From positions 5,332,001 to 5,396,000 of the forward strand of contig NC_014931.1 in NCBI RefSeq assembly GCF_000184745.1: a DNA stretch of 64,000 bases. The letters are read 5' to 3'. A model generated the notes under the pieces. The model ran no database searches. It saw only the letters and a program-made list of their open reading frames with translations, and was not told where the DNA came from. The translations under genes were made by a program, and so were the position numbers. Shown in pieces: positions 4,874 to 40,665 of the stretch. Numbering within the stretch: position 1 is the first letter of the stretch; every line of letters starts with the position of its first letter. The DNA comes from Variovorax paradoxus EPS (lineage in GTDB: Bacteria; Pseudomonadota; Gammaproteobacteria; Burkholderiales; Burkholderiaceae_C).

Positions 4874-4971
4874 TGCTGTTTTCCAACCACAAAAAACCTG
4901 ACTCTCGTCGGTGTCACGAAGAAACTGATGTGACAATTGTTTGCAGCAACGAATGCTTTCGACTAGATCGA

Positions 4972-5006
4972 TGAATGAAATGCAGCCACTCAGTTTTCAA
5001 GGCAAT
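4972..5006 (-). promoter_or_regulatory. Shared promoter-like module, copy A (upstream of pilE)
   Basis: Read on the minus strand: TTGAAA at 5000-4995, a 17-base spacer containing ACTGAGTGGCTG, then CATTCA at 4977-4972. Similarity to copies B and C continues downstream to a CAAACAAT block near 4934-4941. It points at pilE. The same arrangement occurs at 6919-6981, 28904-28938, 38510-38544 and 40632-40665. Promoter function is inferred from spacing and position. Confidence 0.6.
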
Positions 5007-5020
5007 GCCGTGGCTGAACG

Positions 5021-5935
5021 CTATGCACCAGATGTGGGCGCCCAACCCTGCTGGCTCAGTTTTTCCACCGCCATGTCGGCGAACATCGAAACGGCCAGCG
5101 GACGCTGCTGGCGGCTGGGGTAGACAACGCTCAGGCCGCGGCCGGCCCGCGTGTACCCGGGCAGCACCCGCACCAGCCTGCCGGCGGCGATTTCGGGGGC
5201 CGTCAGGATCGAGGGCAGCGCGGCAATGCCCAGGCCCGCGCATGCGGCCTGGCGCAGCACCGACTGCGTGTTGCTGTTGAAGCGCCCTTTCACGCGCACG
5301 TCCTTCTCCACGCCTTCCGCGTCCTGCAGGCGCCAGATGGCGTTGCCGCTCGCATCGGGCTGCACCACGCACTCGTGCTCGCCGAGGTCCTCCAGGGACA
5401 TGGGCACGCCATGCGCCGCCAGATATGCCGGGCTGGCGGTCAGTTCGCCATAGCTCGCGAAGATGCGCCGGGCCACATAGCAGGAGTCCTGCAGCGGGCC
5501 GCCGCGGAATGCGATGTCGATGCGATCGGCAATCAGGTCGACCAGCAGATCGCTGAGCACGAAGTCCAGGCGCACCTGGGGATGCTCGGCCAGGAACGTG
5601 TCCACCCATTCCATCTGGAAGAAATCGAAGAAGCTGGTCGGCGCGGTCACGCGCACCGTGCCGGACGGCTCCGAGTTGTCCGCCACGTGCAGTTGACCGG
5701 CTTCGATGAGCTCCTCGACCGCCGGGCCGCATCGCTCGTGGAAGGACTCACCTGCGCTCGTCAGCGTGAGCTTGCGGGTCGAGCGCTGCATCAACCGCGT
5801 GCCCAGCCGCGCCTCGAGTTGCTGGATGCGCCGGCTCACCGTGGCGGAAGGCACGCTCAAGCGTCGTGCCGCCTCGGCGAAGCTGCCGCTGCGAGCCACC
5901 TGCACAAACATCGCCACTTCATTCAGATCGAGCAT
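5021..5935 (-). CDS. LysR-family transcriptional regulator
   Basis: 304 residues from ATG 5935, preceded by a good ribosome site (AGGAAG, about 7 bases upstream); the open frame before it is not protein-like. The N-terminal winged helix (residues 1-60, with ARSGSFAEAARRLSVPSATV) and the LysR substrate-binding domain (about 90-295) are complete. Motifs such as FRGGPLQDSCYVARRI and the AGLGIAALP loop belong to the DsdC/AaeR-like group common in Burkholderiales. It points away from the MarR gene at 6253. Ligand and targets cannot be read from the sequence. The pilE promoter module begins 15 bases past its stop. Confidence 0.85.
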   Translation of the reverse strand: MLDLNEVAMFVQVARSGSFAEAARRLSVPSATVSRRIQQLEARLGTRLMQRSTRKLTLTSAGESFHERCGPAVEELIEAGQLHVADNSEPSGTVRVTAPTSFFDFFQMEWVDTFLAEHPQVRLDFVLSDLLVDLIADRIDIAFRGGPLQDSCYVARRIFASYGELTASPAYLAAHGVPMSLEDLGEHECVVQPDASGNAIWRLQDAEGVEKDVRVKGRFNSNTQSVLRQAACAGLGIAALPSILTAPEIAAGRLVRVLPGYTRAGRGLSVVYPSRQQRPLAVSMFADMAVEKLSQQGWAPTSGA

Positions 5936-6252
5936 GGGATTCTTCCTGTTGTTGTTGCCAGGTTCGAGCCGGCCTTTTTTCGATACGTCTCCAACTTTCC
6001 TGAGGGCTTGGGAAGCACCAATCAGGGGCATTCGCGGCGCATCAAAGGGATGCCGGGCGGTTCATTTGAGGTACGTCCCTCACGCAACACGCTGAACGGG
6101 AGCTGACATCCCCGGAGGGCTGATGTACTTTGCGAAAAAGCTCGCCGTTCGCAGCAAATTGCCGCAGCATGTCGTCTGTTGCCTGTTATAGAAACATAAC
6201 GATCATTTGACCTAATCAATTACCGGCAGCTTCATTACGAGCCCTTATCCAC
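5936..6252. other. Divergent intergenic region, LysR/MarR
   Basis: 317 bases with no gene. It holds the divergent leaders of the LysR (minus) and MarR (plus) genes. A TTGACC at 6207-6212 is a candidate -35 for the MarR gene; it lies in the small palindrome TTGACCTAATCAA (6207-6219), a possible operator. Nothing else stands out. Confidence 0.4.
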
Positions 6253-6810
6253 ATGCGAGCCCTTCCCGATACGACAGCACTGGGCGCACCGCGCGCACTG
6301 GACGACCTCTTGCTCTACCGCTTGTGGAACGCCACGCGCTCAAGCAGGGCCATGGCAACGCGCATCGTGGAGGGGGGCTTCGGCATCACGCACCGGGAAT
6401 GGGGAATGATCGGCATGCTCGCGCAGGTCGGAGAGATCAGGCCCTCGGCGCTCGCCGAGCAGCTGCAGCTCGACCGCGTGCGCACATCGCGGGGCCTGCG
6501 AAGCCTCTTCGAGAAGCGCCTGATCGAACGGCGTCAGAACGCCGATGACGGCCGCGAAGTCCACGTGCAATTGAGCGACGCAGGCCAGCAACTCTTCGAA
6601 GAATTGTTCCCGCGCATTGCCGGCCTCAACGTCGACCTTCTCGAAGGCCTCGATGCCGAACACCACCATATCCTTCTCCAGTGCCTGTACCAGCTCGAGT
6701 CGCGCGGCAACGCATTGAATGCACAGCGCGCAGTGCCGGAGAAAGCCGATCGTCGCGCGGGTGGCACGCGCCACCACTGGTCCAGGCAGGTCGACATCTG
6801 CCTGATCTAG
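6253..6810 (+). CDS. MarR-family transcriptional regulator (paralogue 1 of 3)
   Basis: 185 residues. A winged-helix MarR domain covers about residues 20-145, with recognition segment SALAEQLQLDRVRTSRGLRS, wing ERRQNADDGREVHVQLSDAG, and flanking dimerisation helices. Two close relatives lie at 10414-10959 and 28929-29510: all share the leader pattern RALDDLLLYRLW and the block VEGGFGITHREWGMIG. The C-terminal tail GGTRHHWSR matches paralogue 2 (GGTRHRWPR). It is followed, after 248 bases, by an orphan binding-protein gene on the same strand. The ligand is unknown; the family usually senses small phenolics or lipophiles. Confidence 0.85.
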   Translation: MRALPDTTALGAPRALDDLLLYRLWNATRSSRAMATRIVEGGFGITHREWGMIGMLAQVGEIRPSALAEQLQLDRVRTSRGLRSLFEKRLIERRQNADDGREVHVQLSDAGQQLFEELFPRIAGLNVDLLEGLDAEHHHILLQCLYQLESRGNALNAQRAVPEKADRRAGGTRHHWSRQVDICLI

Positions 6811-6918
6811 CCTGCTGCCGCACGAACAGCTGATCGCTGCTTCAAGGCGCAGCTTCCCCGGAGCGGACGACGCAAAAGCTGGATGGCCGCTTCTGCGTTC
6901 GGTACTCGGCATCCGTGC

Positions 6919-6957
6919 CTATTGCGCTGAACTATTGCGCTGAACTATTGCGCTGAA
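6919..6957 (+). repeat. Three perfect 13-base tandem repeats
   Basis: The unit CTATTGCGCTGAA occurs three times without a gap (6919-6931, 6932-6944, 6945-6957). The third unit runs into promoter-like module copy B, so TTGCGCTGAA, the upstream edge of the module, is triplicated here only. Confidence 0.9.
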
Positions 6958-6981
6958 AACTGAGTGGCTGATTTCCATTTT
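6953..6981 (+). promoter_or_regulatory. Shared promoter-like module, copy B (upstream of binding protein)
   Basis: CTGAAA (6953-6958), a 17-base spacer with ACTGAGTGGCTG, then CATTTT (6976-6981). This is the same layout as copy A, on the other strand and again pointing at a gene, 78 bases before the ATG at 7059. The similarity continues to CAAACAATCGATG near 7010-7022. Confidence 0.6.
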
Positions 6982-7058
6982 CATCGCTAGTGGAAAGTAC
7001 ACACTTCTCCAAACAATCGATGCTCACGTTCCTGTGCGACACATGCGAGCCGTCCCTC

Positions 7059-7979
7059 ATGTCCCCTCTTTCCGCGCATCTGCTGCGCGCCACGTTGATT
7101 CCCGCTTCTTTCGCACTGACGGCATTGGCTGCATTGCCGGTACACGCCGCCGTCGACACGATGAGCAAGATCCGCGAAACACGCACGATCGTGCTCGGTG
7201 TTCGCGAAGCAGCAGCGCCGTTTTCCTTCGTCAATGCACAGAAGCAACCCGTGGGCTATTCGGTGGACCTGTGCATGAACGCTGTCGAGGAGATCAGGCG
7301 CGAGCTCAAGCTGCCCGACATCAAGGTTCAGTACAAGCCCGTGTCCGGCCCCGACCGCATTCCCAAGCTGCTTTCCGGTGAGATCGACCTCGAGTGCGGC
7401 TCGACCACCAACACGATGGCACGCCAGGAAAAGGTGGACTTCAGCTACACCTTCTTCGTCGCGGGGATGCGCGTGCTGACGAGCCAGAACCTTCATGTGG
7501 ACACGGTGAAGGATCTGCAGAAGCAGCCGGTCGCGCTGACCAAGGGCACGACGTCGGAGAAGCTTTTCAGGCAACTCGCCGAGGGTGAACTGCGCGACGC
7601 GAAGTTCACCACCTACGACAACAACGTCGAAGCCTTCAAGGCCCTGAAGGAAGGCAAGGTGCGCGCGTTCGCGCAGGACGATTCGCTCCTGCAAGGCCTC
7701 GTGTCGAACGACAAGACGATCGATACGCTCAGCCTGAGCAGGCTCGCGCTGTCGGTCGAGCCGTACGCCGTGATGGCGCGCAAGGGCGACACCGCATTGC
7801 TGGCCGCTGTCGACCGCAGCCTCGCGCAGCTGTATTCGAGTGGCGAGATCAACAAGCTCTACGACAAGTGGTTCAACACCAGCACGCTCACCATCAAGAT
7901 GGGACGCCTCACACGCGACAGCTTTGTCCGGCCGAACAAGCAGCCCGGCGTTGCGATGGTGCTCGGCCATTCGATCTGA
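7059..7979 (+). CDS. Periplasmic amino-acid-type ABC transporter substrate-binding protein (orphan)
   Basis: 306 residues from ATG 7059, giving a good Sec signal peptide (MSPLSAHLLRATLIPASF then ALTALAALPVHA). An in-frame ATG at 7020 exists, but its N-terminus is not signal-like. The mature part is a SBP_bac_3 domain: IVLGVREAAAPFSF, GYSVDLCMNAVE, ELSG-type DLECGSTTNT, and the closing YDKWF. It resembles GltI-like glutamate/aspartate receptors. No permease or ATPase gene is adjacent, so it either serves a transporter encoded elsewhere or acts as a sensor. It has copy B of the shared promoter module. Confidence 0.85.
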   Translation: MSPLSAHLLRATLIPASFALTALAALPVHAAVDTMSKIRETRTIVLGVREAAAPFSFVNAQKQPVGYSVDLCMNAVEEIRRELKLPDIKVQYKPVSGPDRIPKLLSGEIDLECGSTTNTMARQEKVDFSYTFFVAGMRVLTSQNLHVDTVKDLQKQPVALTKGTTSEKLFRQLAEGELRDAKFTTYDNNVEAFKALKEGKVRAFAQDDSLLQGLVSNDKTIDTLSLSRLALSVEPYAVMARKGDTALLAAVDRSLAQLYSSGEINKLYDKWFNTSTLTIKMGRLTRDSFVRPNKQPGVAMVLGHSI

Positions 7980-8205
7980 GCGGGAGTGAGTGGGCGGCAG
8001 CCCGATGACTCTTCGGGTCCGGCACCGGCTGACATTTCACGGCGCGTCGCAAGTGCCATGTGCCGCGAAACGTCAGCGGCAAGACATGCCTTGTCAGCCC
8101 GGGCGTTCTTCTTGCACCGTTTCGCCTTAAAGGCGCGCGATCGATGAGGACGAAACGCACGGCGCGCATGTTGCGGTCCACACGCATCACACATTCTTCT
8201 TCGCA

Positions 8206-10368
8206 ATGGATTCATTCGACAACGAAAACACCGCGCCCTTGGACCGTCGCATCTTTTGCCTCAGCGCGATCAGCCTTGCCACTCTGGGCGCGACAGCTTG
8301 CGGTGGTGGTAGTGGAGGCAGCGGCTTTGTCGGCGGTGGCATCGCTGCGGGACCGGGGGTACCGACTGCGGTCGCGCCGGCTCCTCCCACAGCAGTCGAT
8401 CCTTCCGGCGATCCGAGCGCTCCCGCGGTGGCTCCGCCCCCTCCTTCACCCCCTCAGGCACGCAAGTTCGTCCACCCCGGCCTTCTTCACACGGAGAGCG
8501 ATTTCGAGCGCATGCGCCAGAAGGTCCAGGAGCAGGCGCAACCGTGGCTCTCCGGCTGGAATGCATTGACAGGCAACGGCCGCGCGCAGCTCGGTGCGAA
8601 GCCGCGTCCGCTGGCCACGGTGATTCGGGGGGACGTCCCGGGCCAGAACTTCGCGCAGTTCTACATCGACGTCGCGCGCGCCTACCAACTCGCGCTGCGC
8701 TGGAAGGTCTCGCAGGACACGCGCTATGCCGACCTTGCGGTGGTCTTCCTGAACGAATGGTCCTCCACGCTCAAGGAGGTCACGGGCAATGCGGACCGCT
8801 TTCTCGCGGCGGGCATCTACGGCTACGAGTTCGCGAACGCGGCCGAGATCATGCGCACCTACCCAGGCTGGGCGCCGGCCGATTTCGCGCGCTTCCAGAC
8901 CATGATGCTGGACATCTTCTATCCGCTCAACAACCAGTTCCTCACCATCCACAACGGCACCCAGTACAGCAGCTACTGGGCCAACTGGGACCAATGCAGC
9001 ATGGCCTCGATCTTGGCCATCGGCGTGCTCTGCGACCGGCCGGACATCTACGACGAGGCGATCAGCTACTACAAGGCCGGCCAGGGCAACGGCGCGGGCC
9101 TGCAGGCGGTCTACTACGTGCATCCCGGCTACCTCGGCCAATGGCAGGAAAGCGGGCGCGACCAGGGCCACTGCACGCTGGGCATCGGCCTTGCGGGCGC
9201 CTTCTGCGAGATGGCGTGGAACCAGGGCGACGACATCTACGGCTACGAGAACAACCGCTTCCTGGCGGGCGCCGAGTACGTGGCGAAGACCAATCTTCGC
9301 GATGGCACCGGCGCCTTCTACACGATGCCCTACTTCACCAACGTCAACAAGCAAGGCAAGCAGGCCGAGCTGTCGACGGGAGCCCAGGGCCATCGGCGAG
9401 GCATCTGGGAAAGCGTGCACAACCACTATGCCAATCGCCTGGGCATCGCGACGCCCTACACCGCCCTGCAAGCCATCCAGATGCGCCCCGAGGGAGACGG
9501 CGGCAAAGGCGACGAACTGGGCTTCGGCACGCTGACCTTCACGCGCGATCCGCTGCCGACAGCCGGGCGCCCCAGCGGGTTGACCGCGCGCTTGCGCGGC
9601 ACGCAGGTTGTGCTGTCATGGTGGGGCTGCACCGGTGCGCAGAGCTACTCGGTGCGCCGCGCGGAGCGGGCCGGCGGCCCCTACAGCGTGATCGCATCGG
9701 GCATCACCGACACGCTCACGTTCAACGACACCGCGCTCAGCGCGACCGGCGCGACCGGCGCGACCGACGTCTACCACTACGTGATCGTCGCGGCCACCGC
9801 CTCGGGCGACAGCGCGCCGTCCACCGAAGCGCGGGTGTCCGTGGCGCCCGAGCTGCTGCTGCAGTGGAAGCCCGATGGCGGCGCGCGCACGCCTGTCCGC
9901 CTGCCGACGGGTCTTGCGAAGAACGCCGCCGACTTCACGGTCTCGGTCCGGGTCTTCCTGGACAGCGCCGCAACGTGGGCCCGCGTGTTCGACTTCGGCT
10001 CCGGCACGCGCCGCTACATGATGCTCACGGTCCGCAATGGCGGCGGTGTGGTCCGCTACGGGATCTCCACGGTCCACGGCTTCAACGAGGAGGGGATCGA
10101 CGGCACGTCGGCGCTTGCCACCGGACGCTGGGTGCATGTCGCGGTCACCCTGTCGGGCACGCTCGGGACGCTGTACGTGGACGGCGTCGTCGACGGCACC
10201 AATGCACAGATGACGCTCACGCCCGCCGACCTGGGCGAGACGACGCAGAACTGGCTCGGCCATTCGCAGTTTGCCAAAGACCCCGATCTGCAGGGACGCG
10301 TGGACGACCTGCGCTTCTACAGCGGCGCACTCGGCGCGACAGAGATTGCCGCACTGGCGAAGGCCTGA
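8206..10368 (+). CDS. Alginate-lyase-like lipoprotein with C-terminal LamG-type domain
   Basis: 720 residues. DRR at 13-15 precedes a hydrophobic stretch and a lipobox-like Cys32, suggesting export, perhaps by Tat, and lipidation. A glycine- and then proline-rich linker runs to about residue 84. An alpha-toroid alginate-lyase-type domain follows (about 85-435), with NGTQYSSYWANWDQ at 250-263 and QESGRDQGH at 314-322, family active-site motifs. A fibronectin-III-like segment (about 455-545) and a concanavalin/LamG-type domain (about 550-718, ending in DDLRFYSGALGATEIAAL) complete it. It probably cleaves uronate-containing polysaccharide at the cell surface; the true substrate is unknown. No alginate-use operon surrounds it. 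Confidence 0.8.
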   Translation: MDSFDNENTAPLDRRIFCLSAISLATLGATACGGGSGGSGFVGGGIAAGPGVPTAVAPAPPTAVDPSGDPSAPAVAPPPPSPPQARKFVHPGLLHTESDFERMRQKVQEQAQPWLSGWNALTGNGRAQLGAKPRPLATVIRGDVPGQNFAQFYIDVARAYQLALRWKVSQDTRYADLAVVFLNEWSSTLKEVTGNADRFLAAGIYGYEFANAAEIMRTYPGWAPADFARFQTMMLDIFYPLNNQFLTIHNGTQYSSYWANWDQCSMASILAIGVLCDRPDIYDEAISYYKAGQGNGAGLQAVYYVHPGYLGQWQESGRDQGHCTLGIGLAGAFCEMAWNQGDDIYGYENNRFLAGAEYVAKTNLRDGTGAFYTMPYFTNVNKQGKQAELSTGAQGHRRGIWESVHNHYANRLGIATPYTALQAIQMRPEGDGGKGDELGFGTLTFTRDPLPTAGRPSGLTARLRGTQVVLSWWGCTGAQSYSVRRAERAGGPYSVIASGITDTLTFNDTALSATGATGATDVYHYVIVAATASGDSAPSTEARVSVAPELLLQWKPDGGARTPVRLPTGLAKNAADFTVSVRVFLDSAATWARVFDFGSGTRRYMMLTVRNGGGVVRYGISTVHGFNEEGIDGTSALATGRWVHVAVTLSGTLGTLYVDGVVDGTNAQMTLTPADLGETTQNWLGHSQFAKDPDLQGRVDDLRFYSGALGATEIAALAKA

Positions 10369-10413
10369 GAAGGAAGGTGTGAACGAACCGCCCACGGAAT
10401 GCAGGCGCTTCGT

Positions 10414-10959
10414 TCAGGCCCGGTAACGCGGCCACCGGTGGCGCGTGCCGCCCGCACTGCGACTGGCGCTTTCCGGCACCGCGCCCTTCGCGTTCAATTC
10501 GGCTGCACGCAGCTCGATCCGGCTCAGGCATTGAAGAAATATGCCGGCCTGCGCGTCGTCGATGCCGGCCACGAGCTCGGCATCGAGGCGCGCGATGCGC
10601 GGAAACAGGTCATCGAAGAGCTGCTGCCCTTGAGGGCTCAGGCGCACATGCACGCCGCGGCCGTCCTCGGCGTCGCGCCGCCGCTCCACCAGTCCCTTCT
10701 GGGAGAGGCTGCCCAGGCCGCGCGAGGTGCGCACACGGTCCCACTGCAGATGTTCGGCAAAGGCCGAAGGGGTCGCCTCGCCGATCTGCCTGAGCGCGGC
10801 GATCAGCTCCCATTCGCGATGCGTGATGCCGAAGCCCTCGTCGGCAATGCGCGTCGCCATGCCGACGACGGCGCGTATGGCGCACGGCAGCCTGAACAGG
10901 AAGAGATCACCCAGGGAACCGGGGGCGGGCGCCCCACCCGCATCGGAGAAAGCTGGCAT
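10414..10959 (-). CDS. MarR-family transcriptional regulator (paralogue 2 of 3)
   Basis: 181 residues from ATG 10959 (MPAFSDAGG...); the frame is open further upstream but that part has no MarR character. The DNA-binding core includes ATRIADEGFGITHREWELIA, then SAFAEHLQWDRVRTSRGLGS and the wing ERRRDAEDGRGVHVRLSPQG, close to the gene at 6253. The C-terminal tail GGTRHRWPR is also shared. It converges on the alginate-lyase-like gene and is transcribed away from the LysR gene at 11157. Start confidence is moderate because no clear ribosome site precedes it. Confidence 0.82.
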   Translation of the reverse strand: MPAFSDAGGAPAPGSLGDLFLFRLPCAIRAVVGMATRIADEGFGITHREWELIAALRQIGEATPSAFAEHLQWDRVRTSRGLGSLSQKGLVERRRDAEDGRGVHVRLSPQGQQLFDDLFPRIARLDAELVAGIDDAQAGIFLQCLSRIELRAAELNAKGAVPESASRSAGGTRHRWPRYRA

Positions 10960-11156
10960 ACGAATCAGAGAGTGGAGGTGCCAGGTCACCGAAATGAGTG
11001 CCCGGTAGGAAGCGCCGGATCGCACCGGCTTCCCGACTTGCGCCGCATGGCCCTGGCGGCTCATGCATGCGGGGCCAACGATACGCATCGGTGCGGCCGG
11101 GATAAACGTCGCGCTGCGCAATTGCTTATCCCGGAATCCGGAACAAAGGGCTGTCG

Positions 11157-12128: not shown

Positions 12129-12134
12129 AGGCCC

Positions 12135-13379
<1,245 letters not shown>

Positions 13380-13566
13380 GCGGATGTCTTCCGGGTTGGG
13401 GGTGATGGGTCGGGGAACGGTTGCGCCATGGTGCCCGGCCCGGGCCCGTCCGTCTGTCTCCTGCATGACGGCGCGCGCCTCGCGCATGCACGCATCGACA
13501 CCCGCGACCTGGTCTTTGAATTCAGCTAAGAGGCCGAGCGGCCATGCCGGATCGCCTCTCAACGCC

Positions 13567-17039: not shown

Positions 17040-17058
17040 GTCGTTCTCCCGGGGCCGC

Positions 17059-17400: not shown

Positions 17401-17426
17401 GGTGGTTCCGGAAGCTTCCTGGCGTC

Positions 17427-27327: not shown

Positions 27328-27339
27328 GCGGTGGCGTTT

Positions 27340-27783: not shown

Positions 27784-28761
27784 CTAGACGGAAGGACTGC
27801 TTCCCAGTTCGAGCCTTCTCTGGCTTCTCTTGCGGTATTCCTTGGGCGTGATGCCCTTGATCTCGAGAAACTTGCGATTGAAGTTCGACAGGTTGTTGAA
27901 GCCGACCTCATAGCAGATCGATACGACCTGCCGTTCGGTCTGCATCAACAGAAGGCATGCCTTTTTGATCCGAACCCGATTCAAATAATCCACGAATCCA
28001 TAACCGGTCGACCGGCGAAACAGCCGGCCGAAGCGGCCCGCATCCATGCCCAGTTCACTCGCGGCCTCCGCCGTGTTCATGTCTCCCGATGGATCGATGG
28101 CGATGCGGGCCGCGAGGTTGTTGATGGCCTTGATGTCGTTGCCGCCGCTGGCCTGCACGCCCGACAACAACCGGTAATCGGTGCATCGCGCGAGATCGGA
28201 GAGGAGCTCGCAGAACACGCTGAACCGCTTGAGTCCACGCGCGCGCTCGATGCCCTTCCAGTGCTTCTCGGCCGAGGCTGCCATGCCGAAGAACTCGATG
28301 CCGTATTGCGCACGCTTCAACAACTGAACCGCCTCGACGAACTCCGGAATCTTCCCGGCGGCCTCGAAGATCGGCTCTTGCGAAAAGTGGATGATCAGAT
28401 CGCGTTGCGGCACACCCTCCGGCGGCGCATCGAGCGAGCGCCAGTGGTGCGGAAGCTGGGGGCCGCACAGCACGAGGTGGCCGGGGTCGAAGGTGCCGAT
28501 CCAGTCGCCGACGAACGCTTCGCCCGAGGTGGCCGCGATGAGGTGAAGCTCGTATTCCTCATGGCAATGCCAGCGCGCCAGGGGTGAAGGAAAACCATGC
28601 GAATGACAGCGGATCAATCCGTCTTCTTCGGAGGGCTCGCAGCCCAGCGTGATCGCACGCGCGGGTTCGAGGTCGACTTCGGCCTCGGGCATCAAGCAGC
28701 CCGGCGATGCGCCATGCAAGCCCGTTGCCGAGCACAGGCTGCGTTCAGCGAATGCATCCAT
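27784..28761 (-). CDS. AraC-family transcriptional regulator
   Basis: 325 residues. The N-terminal half is a cupin-like ligand domain (HCHEEYELHLI around residues 65-75, then GTFDPGHLVLCGPQLPHHW). The C-terminal about 100 residues hold two helix-turn-helix units, with VVSICYEVGFNNLSNFNRKF and GITPKEYRKRSQ. It lies directly upstream of flp in the same direction and is a natural candidate regulator of the Tad locus (inference from position). Its own start is preceded by copy C of the shared promoter-like module, which overlaps the stop of the MarR gene above it. Confidence 0.88.
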   Translation of the reverse strand: MDAFAERSLCSATGLHGASPGCLMPEAEVDLEPARAITLGCEPSEEDGLIRCHSHGFPSPLARWHCHEEYELHLIAATSGEAFVGDWIGTFDPGHLVLCGPQLPHHWRSLDAPPEGVPQRDLIIHFSQEPIFEAAGKIPEFVEAVQLLKRAQYGIEFFGMAASAEKHWKGIERARGLKRFSVFCELLSDLARCTDYRLLSGVQASGGNDIKAINNLAARIAIDPSGDMNTAEAASELGMDAGRFGRLFRRSTGYGFVDYLNRVRIKKACLLLMQTERQVVSICYEVGFNNLSNFNRKFLEIKGITPKEYRKRSQRRLELGSSPSV

Positions 28762-28903
28762 CGGCGCCGTCCGCCAGTGCCGGGTTGGTGAGAAGAGCGG
28801 GCCGTGTCTTCATGGGAAATGAAAAGCGAAAAGCGCGAAGAGATGTCATGCAGTGCCAAGGTTGCAAATTGTTTGCAGGCACGCGCGCTTCCGACCAGTG
28901 CTC

Positions 28904-28938
28904 AAAATGAAATACAGCAACTCACTTTTCAGCGCAAC
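28904..28938 (-). promoter_or_regulatory. Shared promoter-like module, copy C (upstream of AraC gene)
   Basis: Minus strand: CTGAAA at 28932-28927, 17 bases with AGTGAGTTGCTG, CATTTT at 28909-28904. The -35-like box overlaps the TGA stop of the MarR gene (28931-28929). Downstream similarity to copies A and B continues to CTGCAAACAATTTG near 28866-28879. Confidence 0.6.
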
Positions 28939-29510
28939 TGAAGTGCCGGCATTCCCCAGCGCTGCGTTTCCGCCGCGGGCTGCATGCGCCGCACGGGTGG
29001 CGGCCGGTATTGCGGGGAGTCGGCGCCCTGCGCGTTCAGCTCACCCCCACGCGCTTCCAGACGCTGCAGGCAATCGAGAAAAACCTCGAGATGCGTTGCG
29101 TCGATGCCGTCGAGGAGATCGAGGTTCAGGCGCGCGAGGCGCGGCAGCAGATCGTCGAGGAGCTGCTGGCCCGAAGGGCTCAGGCGCACGTGCACGAGGC
29201 GGCGGTCATCGGTGTCCTGTCGCCGCTCCACCAGCTTCTTTTCGGAAAGACTGCGCAGGGCCAGCGAGGCGCTCGCGCGGTCCAGGTGCAGGCGCTCCGC
29301 GAATCGCGAAGCGGTGACTTCGCCGACCTGCGCGAGCACACCGAGCATTCCCAACTCGCGGCGCGTGATGCCGAAGCCGCCTTCGACCATGCGGGTGACC
29401 ATGGAGTTGCTCGCACGCGCCGCGCACCATATCCGGTAGAGCAGCAGGTCATCCAGTGAACGGGGGGTGCGCAAGGCAACCGTGTCGGGGAAATCGCGCA
29501 TAAGAGTCAT
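28929..29510 (-). CDS. MarR-family transcriptional regulator (paralogue 3 of 3)
   Basis: 193 residues from ATG 29510, chosen because it overlaps the LysR stop as ATGA; ATG 29501 is possible. The winged helix has SRFAERLHLDRASASLALRS and the wing ERRQDTDDRRLVHVRLSPSG. It shares RSLDDLLLYRIW and VEGGFGITRRELGMLG with the genes at 6253 and 10414. It is the last gene of a three-regulator run (receiver-like, LysR, MarR). Ligand unknown. Confidence 0.85.
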   Translation of the reverse strand: MTLMRDFPDTVALRTPRSLDDLLLYRIWCAARASNSMVTRMVEGGFGITRRELGMLGVLAQVGEVTASRFAERLHLDRASASLALRSLSEKKLVERRQDTDDRRLVHVRLSPSGQQLLDDLLPRLARLNLDLLDGIDATHLEVFLDCLQRLEARGGELNAQGADSPQYRPPPVRRMQPAAETQRWGMPALQLR

Positions 29511-30490: not shown

Positions 30491-30531
30491 CGTTCACAAG
30501 GAGGATCGGCGGGCACGCGTCCTGCGCACCG

Positions 30532-31221
30532 TCATGGCGAACCCAGACCGAATCGGCGGACCAGTCCGCCGATGAGGCCGGGCCCGGGATTCGGGCTTTC
30601 TGTTTGCGGCTGCGGCGCCGCCGGCAACTTCGGCGCGTCGGGCGGCGTGTCGCCCATCTGCACGTCCAGCACGCCTGCATTGCGCAGCACCTGCAGGAAC
30701 CCGACGCAACGAGAAACGGACTGCCCGCTGCGTTCGGCCATTTCGCTCACGCTCATCTGGCGCTGCCAGAGCAGGTTGGCCATCCGGTCGTTGTCCTCGT
30801 TGCGCCCCATGAGCGCAACCGGAGGCCAGCGGCGAAGCATGAAGCGCGCGGAGTCGAGCAGCTCCTGCGACAGGGCCGACTCCAGCTTGACCGCGCCCGC
30901 CCACCGTCGCGCCTCGACCAGTTCCCGTCCCGTGTTCGAGAGCCACTGCTGAAGCTTCTCGGCGCGGATGGGACGCTCCAGCGTGTTCGCCATGCCTTCC
31001 GAATGCAGGCGCGTGACGGTCAGCACCGCGGGCGCCATCTGTTCGACCTCTGCCAGGTGGTCTTCGATCAGGGTGCCATCGACGAGCAGCGCGTCGAACG
31101 GCGGCTCGTCGACCAGCTTCCACGGGAACGAGCCGTTCTGCGCGGACAGCCGGACGATCGTCTGGACGACGACGATTTCGACGGCCGGCAACCTGAACAG
31201 GCCGAGCCTCAACCTGGGCAT
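30532..31221 (-). CDS. Receiver-like regulator of unknown family
   Basis: 229 residues, ATG 31221 with GAAGG upstream. Residues 1-100 look like a degenerate receiver fold: FDALLVDGT resembles the beta-3 strand with its Asp, VLTVTRLHSEG beta-4, and LERPIRAEKLQQWL the beta-5/alpha-5 region with Arg-Pro instead of Lys-Pro. Residues 145-185 (WQRQMSVSEMAERSGQSVSR) look like a helix-turn-helix. The C-terminus is Pro-rich and ends GLIGGLVRRFGLG. Function unknown. It heads the operon with the NodD-like LysR and MarR genes. Confidence 0.55.
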   Translation of the reverse strand: MPRLRLGLFRLPAVEIVVVQTIVRLSAQNGSFPWKLVDEPPFDALLVDGTLIEDHLAEVEQMAPAVLTVTRLHSEGMANTLERPIRAEKLQQWLSNTGRELVEARRWAGAVKLESALSQELLDSARFMLRRWPPVALMGRNEDNDRMANLLWQRQMSVSEMAERSGQSVSRCVGFLQVLRNAGVLDVQMGDTPPDAPKLPAAPQPQTESPNPGPGLIGGLVRRFGLGSP

Positions 31222-32595: not shown

Positions 32596-32646
32596 CCGCA
32601 TCGCGCGGCGGCTGGCGCCATTGAATTCCGGAGGAGAACAACAACC

Positions 32647-33585: not shown

Positions 33586-33594
33586 ACGCACCGA

Positions 33595-34158: not shown

Positions 34159-34195
34159 TTTTCGATTCCGTCGAGAGTGGTTGGAGTAATCGGAC

Positions 34196-34283
34196 TAATG
34201 CAACAAAGTGGCGAAGCATGGGTGAACGGCCTGCATACGCAAAGCCGTTCTCCTCGATACCTCCCATCGATACAGGAGATACC
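34196..34283 (+). repeat. Imperfect direct repeat, copy 2, with ATC-N9-GAT motif
   Basis: Matches 31489-31577 from TAATGCAACAAAGTGGCGAA to GGAGATACC. ATC lies at 34266-34268 and GAT at 34278-34280, nine bases apart as in copy 1. Relative to the secreted-protein gene (ATG 34158, minus) it is in the upstream region; no LysR gene follows it on the plus strand. A third partial TAATGCAACAAA stands at 38408 upstream of the autotransporter. Confidence 0.7.
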
Positions 34284-34440
34284 TGAACCGAGAACTCGAT
34301 TGCATCAGCGCCAGATGCACCCGGCATGAAGCACGCATTAACCGGTGCTGAGCGAAAGATGAATACGGCATGAACAAACGCCGCCTGCGCCGATGCAGTG
34401 AAGCAGGGAAGCAGGGAAGCGGCGTTCCCCTCGGCGCGAA

Positions 34441-34460
34441 CTGATGAATTAGGTCAACAA
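34441..34460 (+). promoter_or_regulatory. Conserved ATTAGGTCAAC leader motif, site 1
   Basis: TGATGAATTAGGTCAAC stands about 60 bases before the MarR-like ATG at 34520. The same string with one change (TGATGGATTAGGTCAAC) is found about 50-70 bases before the start of the OmpR-type regulator at 40473, in the same orientation relative to the gene. Probably an operator; the protein is unknown. Confidence 0.5.
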
Positions 34461-34519
34461 CCGGCCTCGTGAATAAAAAAGGGGATGACGGCGCCGTCGG
34501 GCGCTGACCTGGAGAACCC

Positions 34520-34951
34520 ATGCAATCTGCTGCATCCCCGCTTCCTCTTCAAACCGTGCCGAGCGAATTTCGATTTCGCAGCCAGGCCGCACCACCGAAG
34601 AGCCCGCTTCAGCCGGCCACCATCGAATACTCGCTGCTGATGCTGGTGCTGGTGAACGCCAGCCAGGAGGTCACGCCCCCCTCGCTGGCCAAGGCACTCG
34701 GCATCTCGATGCCCCGCCTGGATTTCAGCGCCGATCGGCTCGAAGCGCGCGGCCTTCTGCGCCGGGATCTCGATGCAGCGGACAGCGAGTCCGGCCGCAT
34801 CCACCTCACGGCCAAGGGGCGCGAATTGGTGCACAAGACCGAAGCGGTCGCAGCCAGCATGGACACCGGACGACCGGCGCCCATGAGCCTCGCGGAACGC
34901 GCGCTGCTGTCCGAACTGCTGGAGCGCATGGACGAACGCGGTCCGCGCTGA
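34520..34951 (+). CDS. Small MarR-like winged-helix regulator
   Basis: 143 residues, ATG 34520 with CTGGAG upstream. After a flexible 35-residue N-terminus comes a single winged helix: PATIEYSLLMLVLVNASQEV, PPSLAKALGISMPRLDFSAD, LEARGLLRRDLDAADSESGR and IHLTAKGRELVHK. It is shorter than the three MarR paralogues and not closely related to them. It is followed by the convergent autotransporter gene. Confidence 0.7.
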   Translation: MQSAASPLPLQTVPSEFRFRSQAAPPKSPLQPATIEYSLLMLVLVNASQEVTPPSLAKALGISMPRLDFSADRLEARGLLRRDLDAADSESGRIHLTAKGRELVHKTEAVAASMDTGRPAPMSLAERALLSELLERMDERGPR

Positions 34952-35089
34952 GGCGCTCGCTGCGCGTCGATGCGCAGCGATGCGCATCGGGTCAGGGGCA
35001 CGGTCTTCGGCTTGGCGGACACGACACGGCTTGTCGCGAATTCGCGCACGTACCGCACCGCACCCGCGTCCGCACCTCACCACTGCACC

Positions 35090-38000
35090 TCACCACTTCA
35101 TGCGCAATCCGAGCGCCCCCTGCAGCGCAGTCTTCACATCGGTCTTGCCGCCCGCGGCCCACAGCTTGCCGACCTCGCCGTAGAGGCTGGTGGTGGCATT
35201 CAGCGCCAGGGTGAGGCCGCCGGCCAGTTCGCCGACGGTGGACCCGGTGCGGCCCGTGATGTCCGTCGTGCCGGCCGGTCCGATGAAGCGGGCCACATCG
35301 GCGCCGCCGCTGGTCTTGTAGATGTTGAAGCGGCCGTACGGCTGCAGCGTGCCGAGCGAGGTGGCGATCTCGCCCTTCAGGCGCACGCCGACGCGCGCGA
35401 TCCAGCCGTCGTCGCTGTCCTGCCGCACGCGTGCACCGGAGATCGCGATGTCGTCCAGCCCGATGTGCTGGTGGATCAGCTGCAACTGCGGCTCGATCTT
35501 CCAGCCGCCCTCGCCCATCGCGAAGGCCTGCCCCACTTCGATGGACGCCATCAGGCTGTCGCCCTTGCCCGCGCTGCGCTGCGCGAACAGCGGCGCGGCG
35601 GTGTAGCGGTGCCGCCCGGCCTGCAGCACGGCGTCGGCATAGAAGCCCGCATCGGCGGTCCAGGTGCCGTAGGCGCCCAGGTAGTGGCTCCGCAGGTCGT
35701 TGGAGCCGACGCCCAGGTTGGCGATGCCGCCGGAGAACCCGCTGACCTTGACGCTGCCGTCGAGCTGGCCGACGTACACGCCGGCGCGCCAGTTCGATGT
35801 GGCGAACAGGTCTGTGCCGGCCTGGAAGCCCCTGGCGTTGCCGTTGCTGTGCGGGGCGACAGTGCCCTGCTGGCGGATGTCGATGTCGGTGGCGATCACG
35901 CGGCCCCAGGCGCGGCGCTCGGTGCCGGTCGATGCGGCGGCGCCGGCCTTCACATCGTCGTCGCCGATGCGCTGGTGCAGGTTGCCGATCATGGCCAGGT
36001 CGGTCTGGCGCAGCTGGCTCGGCAGCGTGGAGAAGATCGGGACTTCGGCGCGGTAGGCGGGCACCTGCACGGCGCCCGTGCCGCTGCTCCCTGCCTCCGA
36101 TGGCGTCGATGGCGTCGAAGGTGTCGCCGTGGTGGTCGAGCGCAGATACCAGTTCTCGCCGGCACCGCTCGCGTCGGCTGCATAGAGGCGGTATTCGAAG
36201 GCACCCGCATCGACGTGGCCGCCGCTCAGCGCAAACGCGTCCTTGGTGGTCTGCGCGGTCGTGGTGGCGCCGTTCCGCGCCGAGACCACTTCGATGCCGT
36301 TACCCGTGGTCAATGCGCCCAAGCCGCCGAGCTGCGTGATCTGCACGCTGGTGCGTCCGCTGGCCGTGCCGCCGTTGAGCACCAGCCGGTCGCTCACGCT
36401 GCTGCTGTCGCCCAGGAAAGTGCCGAGCCGCAGCACGCCGCCGCTGCCGACGTAGGCGCCGTTGACGGTGAGGGTGGTCCCCGGTGCGGTGCCGACGAGC
36501 GAGACGGTGCCGCTGTTGGCGAGCGAGGCGACCGTCTGGCTGAAGCCCGCAAGGTCGAGCGTGGCGCCGCTGCGCACCGTGTGCGCCGAGGCCGCGCTGA
36601 AGGTCCCGGTGGCGCCTGCCTTCAAGGTGCCTGCAGCCACGTCGGTTGCGCCGGTATAGCTGTTGGCGCCCGAGAGCGTGAGCGTGCCGTTGCCGATCTT
36701 GGTGATGAAGCCGCCGCCGGTGATGTTGCCGCTGAGCGTGGCGCCGAAGCTGCCGGTGTCGATGACCGGGTCGTTGCTGCCGGTCAGCACCACGGCATTG
36801 GCGAGGTTGAGGCCGTTGGCCGCGAAGCCCAGCGTGGTGCCGTCGTCCATCGACAGCGCACCGGTGCCCAGCGACAGGTTGTGGCCGACGTTCAGCCGGC
36901 CTTGCTTGAGCGCGGTGCCGCCGGCATAGCTGTTGGCCGCGGTGAGCGTCGTTGTGCCGGCGCCTTGCTTGACGAGCGAGCCGCTGCCGCTGATCGTGTT
37001 CGACACCGTGTGCGCGTCCGAGCGGTCGATGGCCAGCGTCGCGTTGTTGACGATGCTGCCTTTCACCGAGCCGGTGGTGCCGCCGTTGCCCAGTTGCAGC
37101 ACACCGGCGCTGATGGTGGTGGTGCCGGTGAAAGCCTGGTCGCGCGTCAGGGTGAGCGTGCCCGCGCCCGTCTTCTCGATGCCGCCCGCGCCGCTCACCA
37201 GGCCCGCGTAGGTGGCGTTGTCCGGCTGCGCGAAACGCACGAGGCCGTTGTCGGTGATCGCGGCCGGCGCGAACTGCGCACGGCTCTGCAACACGCCGCC
37301 CTGCGCGACGGTCATGCTGCCTGTGTAGGCGCTGTTGTCGGCCCCGAGGATCAGCGTTCCGCCGAGCACGGTTGTGCTGGTGATGCCCGCCGGCGCCAGC
37401 GCGACATTGAAGTTCCAGGTTCCGCTGTTGTTGACCAGGGTTTCGAAGCCGGTGAGCGACAGCGGCGCGAAGGTGTCGGTGGCGTTGTTGTCGCTGTTGA
37501 GGGTGAGCAGGTCGGCGCCTCCGCCGCCGCTGATGTTGCCGGTGATCGACGCGCCCGTGTACCAGCGCAATGCATCGCTGGCGCCGGCGAAGGCGAGCGA
37601 GCCGACGAGGCTGCCCCTGTTGGTGAAGTCGATGGCCATGGTGCCGCTTGCACCGATGACGGTCGTCTGGGTCGAGTTCGTGCCGGCGCCCGCGATGATC
37701 GTGCCGGTGTTCACCACCGTGTTGGCGCCGCTGTTCGACTGGAACCAGATGGCGGTGTGCGAGGAACTGACGGTGCCGTGGTTGGTGATGGTGTTTCCGC
37801 TGCCGACCGGATTGATGGCCTCCGTGCTGGTGCCCGCACCGCTGGCGGTGACGGCCGCTCCCGCCTCGATGGTGATCGTGCTGTTGTCGTTGACCTCGAT
37901 CGTGTTCGCACCGATGAAGCCATAGGGCGAGGTGCCTTTGTTCGTGGCGTTGTTCTGGACCACCGCACCGCTCTGCACCACGATGCTTGCGGCGTTGCCG

Positions 38001-38314
38001 GCGCTGATGCCCGCCTGGTTGCCCGTGCTCACCGTTGCGCCCGACGCGATCGATATCGCCGTGCCAGCCGGCGTCGCCAGGCCGGCGCCCACCGTTGCGG
38101 TCTGGTCGGTTCCGGTGCAGGTGATCGTCTGAGCGGCCGTGTCGGTCGTGCATGCGGCCGATGCGGAAAAGGAAGCCGCAGCAAGCGCGGCAGCCGCAAG
38201 CAGCGGAACGCCGCGTGTCGCCGATGTCGATCTCGCATGCCCGCGCCCGAATTCGGAAGCAACGGTCCAGAGCGCAAGTGCGCTATTCCAGATGACTCGA
38301 AATATCGTATTCAT
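35090..38314 (-). CDS. Type Va autotransporter (adhesin-like)
   Basis: 1074 residues from ATG 38314. The N-terminus MNTIFRVIWNSALALWTVAS is an extended signal peptide region, as in large autotransporters; the Sec core follows and ends SFSASA. The passenger is Gly/Ala/Thr/Asn-rich beta-helix with at least three autotransporter-associated beta-strand repeats (GAGTLTLTRDQAFTG, GAGTTTLTAANSYAG, GNGTLTLSGANSYTG). A pertactin/AIDA-type stem (with GENWYLRS) leads to a barrel of about 270 residues (from RAWGRVIATDIDIR) ending in LRMKW. No protease triad was seen, so adhesion is the likelier role. Copy D of the shared promoter module lies upstream. Confidence 0.93.
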   Translation of the reverse strand: MNTIFRVIWNSALALWTVASEFGRGHARSTSATRGVPLLAAAALAAASFSASAACTTDTAAQTITCTGTDQTATVGAGLATPAGTAISIASGATVSTGNQAGISAGNAASIVVQSGAVVQNNATNKGTSPYGFIGANTIEVNDNSTITIEAGAAVTASGAGTSTEAINPVGSGNTITNHGTVSSSHTAIWFQSNSGANTVVNTGTIIAGAGTNSTQTTVIGASGTMAIDFTNRGSLVGSLAFAGASDALRWYTGASITGNISGGGGADLLTLNSDNNATDTFAPLSLTGFETLVNNSGTWNFNVALAPAGITSTTVLGGTLILGADNSAYTGSMTVAQGGVLQSRAQFAPAAITDNGLVRFAQPDNATYAGLVSGAGGIEKTGAGTLTLTRDQAFTGTTTISAGVLQLGNGGTTGSVKGSIVNNATLAIDRSDAHTVSNTISGSGSLVKQGAGTTTLTAANSYAGGTALKQGRLNVGHNLSLGTGALSMDDGTTLGFAANGLNLANAVVLTGSNDPVIDTGSFGATLSGNITGGGFITKIGNGTLTLSGANSYTGATDVAAGTLKAGATGTFSAASAHTVRSGATLDLAGFSQTVASLANSGTVSLVGTAPGTTLTVNGAYVGSGGVLRLGTFLGDSSSVSDRLVLNGGTASGRTSVQITQLGGLGALTTGNGIEVVSARNGATTTAQTTKDAFALSGGHVDAGAFEYRLYAADASGAGENWYLRSTTTATPSTPSTPSEAGSSGTGAVQVPAYRAEVPIFSTLPSQLRQTDLAMIGNLHQRIGDDDVKAGAAASTGTERRAWGRVIATDIDIRQQGTVAPHSNGNARGFQAGTDLFATSNWRAGVYVGQLDGSVKVSGFSGGIANLGVGSNDLRSHYLGAYGTWTADAGFYADAVLQAGRHRYTAAPLFAQRSAGKGDSLMASIEVGQAFAMGEGGWKIEPQLQLIHQHIGLDDIAISGARVRQDSDDGWIARVGVRLKGEIATSLGTLQPYGRFNIYKTSGGADVARFIGPAGTTDITGRTGSTVGELAGGLTLALNATTSLYGEVGKLWAAGGKTDVKTALQGALGLRMKW

Positions 38315-38868
38315 GAGTTGCAATGACAATTGATGGCGCACTGAATGAACGTGCGTACGGCACCGGTTCGGCCGGTGCTCTTTGCCTCCCTGGCAAGACG
38401 CGGACTCTAATGCAACAAATTGCAACTCATACTTCTCCAATTGGTAGATTGATGGGTGAATGTGCAAATCTGCAACATTTCATTATCTTTTTACGGTCTA
38501 TTCACGGCAAATATGAAATTCAATAACTCAGATTTCAATGCAATCCTCACCTCGACAAGAATCGAAAAATCTCCAATCACGACAAAGGCTTGCGCGGTTT
38601 CGCACTCAATGACGGTCGGACCCCAGTAATCGGGAGAATTGTTGACTGCGCCGAAATAACTGGACGAATTGATTCTTCACGCCGCCCGGCATGAATTTCA
38701 CGCGAATCGACCGGCAGACCGACGCATGGCCATCAGATAATTAAAAAAAACGCTTGAATGGAATTTAGTTAATTCATTTCAACGAGCAATTATTTTTAAT
38801 TAAAAGAATAATGGCGCTGCTCGGGCGCAGAAAGAATTTGCCCCGGCGCGCTATTGCACGCCAATCGC
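38315..38868. other. AT-rich intergenic region upstream of the autotransporter
   Basis: 554 bases without a supported gene. Unlike the rest of the window it is AT-rich, most strongly at 38737-38812 (runs of A and TTAATT steps). It holds promoter-like module copy D (38510-38544) and a TGCAACAAATTGCA palindrome at 38410-38423. Such a tract is a plausible target for H-NS/MvaT-type silencing. Confidence 0.6.
38510..38544 (-). promoter_or_regulatory. Shared promoter-like module, copy D (upstream of autotransporter)
   Basis: Minus strand: TTGAAA at 38538-38533, a 17-base spacer with TCTGAGTTATTG, CATATT at 38515-38510. This is the best -10 match of the five copies. The ATG at 38314 is about 195 bases downstream, leaving a long leader. 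Confidence 0.6.
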
Positions 38869-39621
38869 TCAACAGGAGCCGGGCTGAACGACCTCGTCCT
38901 GCACGTCGACGCACTTCGACAGCAGATAGCCCTGCCCATACACGGCCTTCAGCACGAAGCCGTTCTTTTCGTGCAGCGCGAGCTTCCGCCGCACGTTGGT
39001 GGCGCAGACATCGAACCCCCGCGAGGTGCGGCGGGAGGTAGACCTCCACAGCGCATTCCAGAGCCAGTCGCGCGTCACCACGCGGTCCATGTTGCGGAAC
39101 AGTTCCAGCGCAAAGTCGAACTGGCGCGGCTGCAGAAAGATCTCGCGCCCCCGATGCAGCACGATGCGGTGGTGCACGACGAACCGGTAGTCGCCCCAGG
39201 CCAGTTCCGGAACCCGGGCCGATCGCGACGAGCCCCCTTTCGCTCGCGCGAGCAGCGAGCGAATGCGCCACTCCAATTCGTCGTTGGTCGTTCGCAAGGC
39301 GTCGAACTCGATGGCATCGACCGCCTCGGCGTCTTCATTGCGAAGCAGCAGCTGCCCCCACTGCGCACCCTCGACAAGAAGGAGCGCCGGCATCCCCTGC
39401 GCATGACTGCCGCCGGCAAGAACCCTTCTGGGAAGGCCGTTCTGCAAAGGCGCCAGGAGCAGATCGAAGCGCTGGTGCTCTTCCAGAAATTCCAGCAGGT
39501 TGTCCTCATGGGTGAACGCGACGGCATGGTGGCCCATCGCGCTCAGCCGGCGCTCCAGCGCGGCACTGCGCACGTCATCGCTGTCATACAGCGCGATGAA
39601 CAGGTTCTGCCGCTCACTCAT
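38869..39621 (-). CDS. OmpR-type regulator with pseudo-receiver (no phospho-Asp)
   Basis: 250 residues. The N-terminal about 120 residues have a receiver outline (LFIALYDSDDVRSAALERRL; FDLLLAPLQNGLP), but the phospho-acceptor position in DLLLAP is Ala, and the conserved Thr and Lys-Pro switch residues are missing. The C-terminal winged helix (about 140-240) is intact: REIFLQPRQFDFALELFRNM, TRDWLWNALWRST, VCATNVRRKL and VYGQGYLL. It is probably phosphorylation-independent. It is the second gene after the regulator at 39691, and the autotransporter lies downstream in the same direction. No histidine kinase is nearby. Confidence 0.85.
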   Translation of the reverse strand: MSERQNLFIALYDSDDVRSAALERRLSAMGHHAVAFTHEDNLLEFLEEHQRFDLLLAPLQNGLPRRVLAGGSHAQGMPALLLVEGAQWGQLLLRNEDAEAVDAIEFDALRTTNDELEWRIRSLLARAKGGSSRSARVPELAWGDYRFVVHHRIVLHRGREIFLQPRQFDFALELFRNMDRVVTRDWLWNALWRSTSRRTSRGFDVCATNVRRKLALHEKNGFVLKAVYGQGYLLSKCVDVQDEVVQPGSC

Positions 39622-39690
39622 TCACAGCATTCCAGACTTGGTCGCGAGCTGATGCCCACGAAGACTTCGAGCAACGCGTGACATGCGCGA

Positions 39691-40473
39691 TCAAGCGCCG
39701 GGACGCTCTTCAAGCACATACCCCTCGCCGCGCACGGAATGCAACAGCCTCTTCTCGAACGGTGCGTCGAGCTTGCTGCGCAGGCGCAGCACGGCCACGT
39801 CGACGGCGTTGTTCTTGCCGTCGAATTCCCTGTTCCACACGCGCTGCGAGAGCTGTTGCCGGGAGAGCACTTCGCCCTGGCTGCGAAGCAGCACCAGCAG
39901 CAGCGCAAATTCCATCCGGGTCAGATCGAGCTCCATGCCCTCGCGGGTGCACCGCGTGGTGCGTTCGTCCAGTTCCAGATCGCCCAGGCGCAGCACCGGC
40001 TGGCGAACCACGCGCGGGCGACGGGCCAACGCCGTGACGCGCCCGAGCAGGTCGGAAAGCGAGAAGGGCTTGACCAGGTAGTCGCTCGCGCCCAGTTCCA
40101 GGCCCGCGATGCGGGCGGCAACGCTGTCGCGTTCGGTCAGGACCAGAAGCGGTGCATCGGTCTTGCGCCGGATCGCCTGGACGGCACTGAATCCTGCATG
40201 TCCGGTTCGCATCGAATTCAGGAGGATGAGCGCGTAGTCTTCCGCGAGCGCCGCGTTCGCGGTGGCGTTGTCGCCGGTCGCGATGTCGATGGCAAACCCG
40301 TTGCTCTCCAGGCCCTCGCTGAACGATCTGCACTGGGTCGACTGATGGTCGATGAGCAGGATGCGCAGGGGATCGATCTCGTCATCGATCTGGGCAGCGC
40401 TCGCATGGCCGGCGCCGAGAAAGGAGCCGCTCAAGGCGGTCTCGAAAGGAAGCTGGGAAACATTAAGTCGCAC
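39691..40473 (-). CDS. OmpR-type regulator with Asp-to-Asn receiver
   Basis: 260 residues from a GTG at 40473 with AGGAGA upstream. After an unusual 35-residue N-terminal extension comes a receiver domain: LRILLIDHQ, then YALILLNSMRTGHAG where the phospho-Asp of DLILLDxxLPG is Asn; Thr (LVLTERD) and Lys-Pro (YLVKPFS) are kept. The winged helix (about 160-255) has MEFALLLVLLRSQGEVLSRQ, VDVAVLRLRSKL and SVRGEGYVLEE. Asn can mimic an active or inactive locked state, so this may be a constitutive regulator. It has promoter-like module copy E and an ATTAGGTCAAC motif in its leader. Confidence 0.87.
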   Translation of the reverse strand: MRLNVSQLPFETALSGSFLGAGHASAAQIDDEIDPLRILLIDHQSTQCRSFSEGLESNGFAIDIATGDNATANAALAEDYALILLNSMRTGHAGFSAVQAIRRKTDAPLLVLTERDSVAARIAGLELGASDYLVKPFSLSDLLGRVTALARRPRVVRQPVLRLGDLELDERTTRCTREGMELDLTRMEFALLLVLLRSQGEVLSRQQLSQRVWNREFDGKNNAVDVAVLRLRSKLDAPFEKRLLHSVRGEGYVLEERPGA

Positions 40474-40529
40474 GATCTCTCCTGTTCCAGCGCCAGGAGG
40501 AGCTGTCGTGCTTTTATATGTTTGCGACA

Positions 40530-40546
40530 GATCGTTGACCTAATCC
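40530..40546 (-). promoter_or_regulatory. Conserved ATTAGGTCAAC leader motif, site 2
   Basis: Minus strand TGATGGATTAGGTCAAC, 57-73 bases before the GTG at 40473. One base differs from the site at 34441-34460 and the orientation toward the gene is the same. A degenerate relative (GATGGATCAGGGCAAC) is seen in the leader remnant at 59058-59203. Confidence 0.5.
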
Positions 40547-40631
40547 ATCATCGTCCCTCGCCACCCCCGCACCCCACTCTCGCCACGATGGAAATCGGCC
40601 CCTTCGCAGGGTGTTTTCTTCATTGCATCGA

Positions 40632-40665
40632 AGAATGAGATTAAGCCTCTCACTTATCCATGCAA
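40632..40665 (-). promoter_or_regulatory. Shared promoter-like module, copy E (upstream of OmpR-type regulator)
   Basis: Minus strand: TGGATA at 40660-40655, 17 bases with AGTGAGAGGCTT, CATTCT at 40637-40632, flanked upstream by TTGCA as in copy D. The -35-like box is the weakest of the five, but the spacer core and spacing are kept. Confidence 0.5.

Follow-up and report, generated by a model that had tools for sequence, protein, structure and literature searches.

A 64,000-nucleotide stretch of the Variovorax paradoxus EPS genome (NC_014931.1, positions 5,332,001 to 5,396,000; assembly GCF_000184745.1), hereafter the window, contains five copies (A to E) of a 45-bp imperfect inverted repeat. 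An earlier note on this DNA had described five sites of one architecture, each directed at a gene start, as confirmed here by sequence inspection and a survey of site placement, and had taken them for promoter-like modules; the repeat is very probably an operator rather than a promoter. We propose that one transcription factor would bind each operator as a symmetric dimer or a dimer of dimers and would control a promoter starting just downstream. The candidate factor LysR_A (our label), a LysR-type regulator encoded next to operator A, would activate or repress a surface regulon of minor pilins, a secretin, an autotransporter, lyase/LamG lipoproteins, binding proteins, and regulators. For this explanation taken as a whole, we consider the arguments for and against to be about evenly balanced.

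Structure of the repeat

The consensus of the unit is ATTGC-N3-GAAAAATGAG-N9-YTCATTTTTC-N3-GCWAT, and the alignment of 33 copies reads ATTGCnTTGAAAAATGAGTGGCTGAATTTCATTTTTnGnGCTAGT, i.e., two 18-bp arms (half-sites, ATTGC-N3-GAAAAATGAG) inverted around a 9-bp middle, 45 bp in total. When a half-site profile was applied with each site left out in turn, the reverse complement at offset +27 averaged 1.44, and the remaining offsets and strands tested averaged −31.8 (standard deviation, 5.3; best, −14.1). Complementarity of the arms was 9.48 of 18 positions at the true center versus 3.3 to 7.2 at shifted centers, and columns 16 and 30 are complementary to each other in all 33 copies. The symmetry differs among copies: a site in genome G029 (G029:C225) is perfect (18/18), E has 14 complementary positions, D has 10, A has 9, B has 7, and C has 6, and the poorest copy, in G095, has 2 of 18. 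Many copies pair one strong half with one weak half, which explains why the earlier note saw a directional module.

The TTGAAA box, conserved spacer, and CATNNT box that had been read as a promoter are all parts of the repeat. The shared unit stands, but its limits are corrected: it runs from ATTGC, ahead of the TTGAAA box, to ∼10 bases past the CATNNT box. Its spacer columns are invariant or near-invariant, unlike those of a sigma-70 promoter. The likeness of A, B, and C downstream of the site, said to reach CAAACAAT, was borne out by alignment. At ∼6920 to 6958 of the window, tandem 13-base copies (ATTGCGCTGAACT) precede the left end of operator B, as if part of a half-site had been duplicated.

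Rarity and distribution of the repeat

With up to three mismatches, TGAAANNTGAGTNNCTGNNTTTCATT matched four times in the window (A to D; E escapes the pattern) versus an average of 0.00 over 100 shuffled sequences. The shorter pattern TGAAAANTGAGTNNCTG, with two mismatches, did not discriminate (13 matches in the genome versus 8 for the reversed control). Across genomes, a pattern search with ≤3 mismatches matched in 21, and the reversed-pattern control gave one match in 100 genomes. Eight of the 21 (L016, L020, L021, L023, L028, L029, L030, and L032) were judged to be chance matches because the flanking ATTGC is absent; these were left out, and the other 13 were used for a 45-bp profile (R1) with 33 training sites.

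With a profile trained without any site of their own genome, A to E score 67.4, 60.2, 47.3, 48.5, and 44.2, respectively, and only the opposite strands of A (10.7) and E (28.3) otherwise exceed 5 in the window. A matrix scan of the complete genome (one contig of 6,550,056 bases; 150 of 804 first-look candidates scored), as the earlier note had proposed, returned eight matches at an expectation value (E) of ≤10, the weakest being 9.2e-7. Five of these are the window sites, and all except that at 2512599 were part of the training set. The three further sites comprise a divergent pair, 2974256 (−) and 2974398 (+), and 2512599 (−), which faces a Peripla_BP_6 binding protein at a distance of 73 bp. 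On one side of the divergent pair is a secretin-related open frame, whose homologue in G060 is GspD (NCBIfam, 588 bits versus a cut-off of 351), and on the other is a glycine-rich, lipoprotein-like frame without a Pfam hit.

Sites are present in 19 of 100 Variovorax genomes at E ≤ 0.01 (63 matches, 30 of them new relative to the training set) and in the same 19 of 101 at E ≤ 0.001. In a family set of 299 genomes, which includes further Variovorax, five have a match at E ≤ 0.01, i.e., two Variovorax and three others at E values of 0.003 to 0.008, approximately the level of chance. The site is restricted to some Variovorax. Among 20 stretches containing a lyase/LamG relative, six of them in site genomes, 19 had no match above 4; many of these paralogues seem simply to be without a site, which gives at most a hint about decay. 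In the remaining stretch (L222 of G031, positions 2357 to 2401), from a genome without LysR_A and the OmpR-type regulator OmpR2, the first 28 bases of a site are intact and the rest is replaced.

Placement, orientation, and the downstream block

The survey of placement and orientation, based on our own gene caller (coding fraction of the window, 0.85), covered 61 of the 63 sites in the 19 genomes; G089:C1:636054 and G074:C5:382717 lay outside the stretches fetched. All 61 are intergenic, overlapping no called gene by >30 bases, and in 60 cases a gene start faces the site from at least one side. The scatter over random or intragenic positions that the earlier note had named as contrary to its proposal was not seen, since the profile falls at gene starts, and the dedicated regulator that it had suggested is likely.

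Orientation is free: 26 sites point forward only, 17 point away only, 17 lie between two facing starts, and 1 does neither. The fixed orientation of a sigma-70 promoter is therefore lacking, with 17 of 43 one-sided sites pointing away, or 16 of 42 without the reversed G087 C1 site, which sits at a contig end and aligns with forward copies. Within the autotransporter family, the unit is reversed and 199 to 208 bp from the start in G018, G087, and G063, versus forward at 186 bp in window site D; the autotransporter sites of G074 and G095 are also forward. Most lyase/LamG loci carry the unit reversed. Left of the site in L066 and L068, a promoter-like TTGATC-17-CTATAAC directed away from the autotransporter was found by eye, and the 1.3 to 2.9 kb beyond it contains no called gene.

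The 26 forward-only copies, about half of which belong to LysR/pilin-type loci, share GAAA at +2 to +5 after the site and AAA-AAT at +20 to +26 (the AAACAAT block), conserved at up to 1.64 bits. Several lyase loci have a TACACT/CACACT block at ∼+30 to +35 (by eye). Both the GAAA…AAACAAT and the TACACT/CACACT blocks are predicted to be core promoters; the former would place the operator at about −77 to −33 in forward copies. The site is best read as an operator because it is an inverted repeat, is free in orientation, and has a separate, likelier promoter downstream.

LysR_A as the candidate binding protein

Comparative evidence points to LysR_A as the binding protein, a tentative identification in which our confidence falls slightly short of even. 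Its best copy has ≥73% identity in 15 of the 19 site genomes and in 0 of 81 others, where identity is ≤63% (Fisher test of codistribution, 1.5e-14, with relatedness ignored). In 14 of these 15 genomes (13 in the placement survey and G095 by coordinates) a site lies ≤126 bp from the stop of one LysR_A copy, and the 15th, G087, has a degraded copy of the site at that place (score, 15.8). The operon following LysR_A and the site encodes pilins in eight genomes (G000, G074, G060, G058, G029, G018, G016, and G095). In the other seven (G009, G048, G050, G059, G063, G089, and G087), a gene related to window positions 30532 to 31191 follows, and in six of these seven a nucleotide-binding gene and two small genes come next (Pfam ATP_bind_1 and Robl_LC7 in G089, the genome tested). 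In L072 (6695 to 8819) and its relatives, from several species, this nucleotide-binding/Roadblock/LC7 operon replaces the pilin operon.

Three points favor LysR_A: no other exclusive candidate is as widespread, a site adjoins one of its copies regardless of the operon that comes next, and a LysR tetramer could cover the whole repeat. Its best NCBIfam model is YafC, at 207 bits far below the cut-off of 470, and its nearest solved relatives by sequence are 3szp and 3hhg, which we take to be AphB and CrgA.

Several points weigh against this reading. First, LysR_A is absent from four genomes that carry sites (G044, G081, G010, and G099), of which two are only 86 to 89% complete. The G044 site scores best of all, and this genome should therefore encode the regulator. 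Second, extra LysR_A copies have no nearby site (L082 and L088), and upstream of LysR_A itself none was seen. Third, the T-N11-A signature is not fixed, its best columns holding it in only 18 and 21 of 33 sites, and the presence of some T-N11-A somewhere in the 45 bp of every site is a weak test. Fourth, the sites are related by descent, so that the dyad and Fisher statistics are not independent trials and are descriptive only. Finally, the reversed autotransporter sites may face an uncalled gene on their other side.

Alternative regulators and other readings of the site

No regulator candidate fits all site genomes. LysR_A and OmpR2 together cover 17 of the 19, G044 and G081 having neither. 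In the four genomes that have no LysR_A, a listing of the regulators close to sites, made with small hidden Markov models of the window's own genes, revealed nothing common. Two other candidates were rejected: the two-component regulator beside the perfect G029 site, which is present in 10 of 19 site genomes versus 12 of 81 others, and the AraC-type protein behind operator C as a general regulator, with an orthologue (100 and 86%) in G000 and G074 only and next matches at ≤69%.

The same operator could instead be bound by a MarR-type protein, or by another regulator retained in most Variovorax, in which case the targets alone would be accessory. By a count made by eye, MarR relatives (≥58%) are found in 18 of the 19 site genomes, including all four without LysR_A, and of three MarR-type genes in the window, two adjoin sites B and C. 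However, such genes also occur in 28 of 81 site-free genomes, G095 has none, and it would be strange for a regulator to be conserved when none of its targets is; we consider this reading unlikely. The MarR-type paralogues of the window lie at 6352 to 6810, 10414 to 10860, and 28929 to 29501, and there are seven matches in the genome.

The chief competitor of LysR_A is OmpR2, an OmpR-type orphan whose receiver is degenerate and which would also control its own gene through site E, although we regard it as quite unlikely that OmpR2 binds the operator. Its orthologues (≥59%; E ≤ 2e-85) occur in 11 of the 19 site genomes and in none of the 81 others; the next group, at 54%, is general. OmpR2 is preceded by a site in G000, G060, G058, and G099, the last of which is without LysR_A. 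In contrast, OmpR2 is absent from 8 of the 19 site genomes, and in G074 no site lies directly before it. OmpR/PhoB proteins usually bind direct repeats (tandem boxes ∼11 bp apart), unlike the 45-bp inverted repeat. In the half-site scan, made with the general half-site profile, the best forward offsets scored −16 or lower. At the position aligned with the phospho-acceptor Asp of the canonical regulator, OmpR2 carries Asn, as do the seven orthologues covering the phospho-acceptor or its flank as aligned, six of which show LLN; as judged from these alignments, OmpR2 probably works without phosphorylation.

The exact spacing and the orientation toward a gene in all five window sites would suit a promoter in which −35 and −10 boxes flank a conserved spacer and are recognized by a special sigma factor. 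It is contradicted by the inverted repeat, the reversed copies, and the separate, conserved AAACAAT block downstream; this very improbable reading gives way to that of an operator, probably one serving a surface regulon. Inverted arms around a short asymmetric spacer and several copies close together might suggest a site of recombination or a small mobile repeat, but this is scarcely credible, as the copies stay in front of the same genes in different species whose flanking DNA is unrelated and 0 of 61 lie inside a called gene.

Genes behind the sites

The genes behind sites encode minor pilins (ComP_DUS and N_methyl), SBP_bac_3 and Peripla_BP_6 proteins, AraC-type and OmpR-type regulators, autotransporters, a UPF0114 membrane protein, lyase/LamG lipoproteins, and the GspD secretin; those of the window are listed in Table 1. 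They are probably switched together. Of the adhesion regulon proposed in the earlier note, a shared regulon of surface genes remains likely, but it is wider than adhesion, including two periplasmic binding proteins, a secretin, and regulators. No site was found before the Tad genes themselves, which the earlier note had included; site C faces the AraC-type gene. At Rfam gathering cut-offs, the window yielded three tRNAs only (48694 to 48778, 58918 to 58991, and 60277 to 60350) and no RNA family at the sites.

Table 1. Operators, predicted promoter elements, and associated genes in the window
Feature	Position	Strand	Basis or context
Minor pilin (pilE of the earlier note), first gene of pilin operon	4364..4873	−	Pfam ComP_DUS, N_methyl on 4364-4936; ATG start chosen
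Predicted promoter A, −10-like AACAAT	4936..4941	−	Predicted from conserved +20 to +26 block
Operator A	4962..5006	−	Before minor-pilin operon, 15 bp past LysR stop; E 1.1e-11
LysR_A, LysR-type regulator	5021..5935	−	Pfam HTH_1, LysR_substrate
Operator B	6947..6991	+	Before family-3 solute-binding protein; E 5.2e-10
Predicted promoter B, −10-like AACAAT	7012..7017	+	Predicted
Extracellular solute-binding protein, family 3	7059..7979	+	Pfam SBP_bac_3 on 6990-7979; start chosen
Alginate_lyase + Laminin_G_3 protein	8206..10368	+	226 bp past binding protein; putative shared operon
AraC-type regulator, candidate target of C	27784..28761	−	Orthologue in one other genome only
Predicted promoter C, −10-like AACAAT	28868..28873	−	Predicted
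Operator C	28894..28938	−	Before AraC-type gene; overlaps last 10 bases of MarR-type gene; E 1.3e-8
MarR-type regulator adjoining C	28929..29501	−	Sequence matches
Autotransporter	35090..38314	−	ESPR, AC_1, beta-domain (Pfam)
Operator D	38500..38544	−	186 bp before autotransporter start; E 5.1e-7
OmpR1, OmpR-type DNA-binding gene	38869..39621	−	No recognised receiver domain (Pfam)
OmpR2, OmpR-type regulator, candidate binding protein and target of E	39691..40473	−	Pfam and alignment
Operator E	40622..40666	−	Near-symmetric; between OmpR-type and metallophosphatase/LamG genes; E 9.2e-7
Metallophos + Laminin_G_3 protein, divergent from E	40911..43136	+	Pfam

With the operator as a defined handle on the DNA, otherwise unlinked surface genes could be tested as one regulon in a genus that is common and root-associated. 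Correction of the promoter reading also matters in practice, as transcript mapping would otherwise be aimed at the wrong bases. More speculatively, and in our view doubtfully, the system could be a genus-specific surface-lifestyle switch in which one regulator acts on a symmetric operator, perhaps with a nonphosphorylatable OmpR-type second layer. Such a switch would jointly set the minor pilins or the GTPase/Roadblock operon, the GspD secretin, the autotransporter adhesin, and the polysaccharide-lyase/LamG lipoproteins, and would work like the CrgA contact switch, with an operator of its own.

Comparison with known systems

Titles and the opening lines of abstracts in the collection searched revealed no paper on such a Variovorax operator, and papers beyond that collection may exist. 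The site shares with sigma-70 promoters TTGAAA and CAT boxes 17 bp apart but differs in its conserved spacer, dyad symmetry, and free orientation.

LysR proteins bind as tetramers to two sites near −65 and −35 (PMC5603801), a geometry that suits the Variovorax site only when AACAAT is taken as the −10 box, in which case the halves would lie near −70 and −40. As with the LysR tetramer sites (RBS/ABS), there would be two contact pairs with an extra turn between them, as in reduced OxyR. In contrast to those sites, the Variovorax halves are alike and inverted, and T-N11-A is not fixed.

The closest parallels are the nearest solved relatives of LysR_A, presumably CrgA of Neisseria and AphB of Vibrio. 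The systems differ in that the 45-bp repeat is confined to some Variovorax and in that lyase/LamG proteins, an autotransporter, and binding proteins are among the Variovorax targets. CrgA controls pilE and pilC1, lowering their expression and that of the capsule genes (PMC9072670). LysR_A adjoins a pilin operon. By analogy, LysR_A may work like CrgA.

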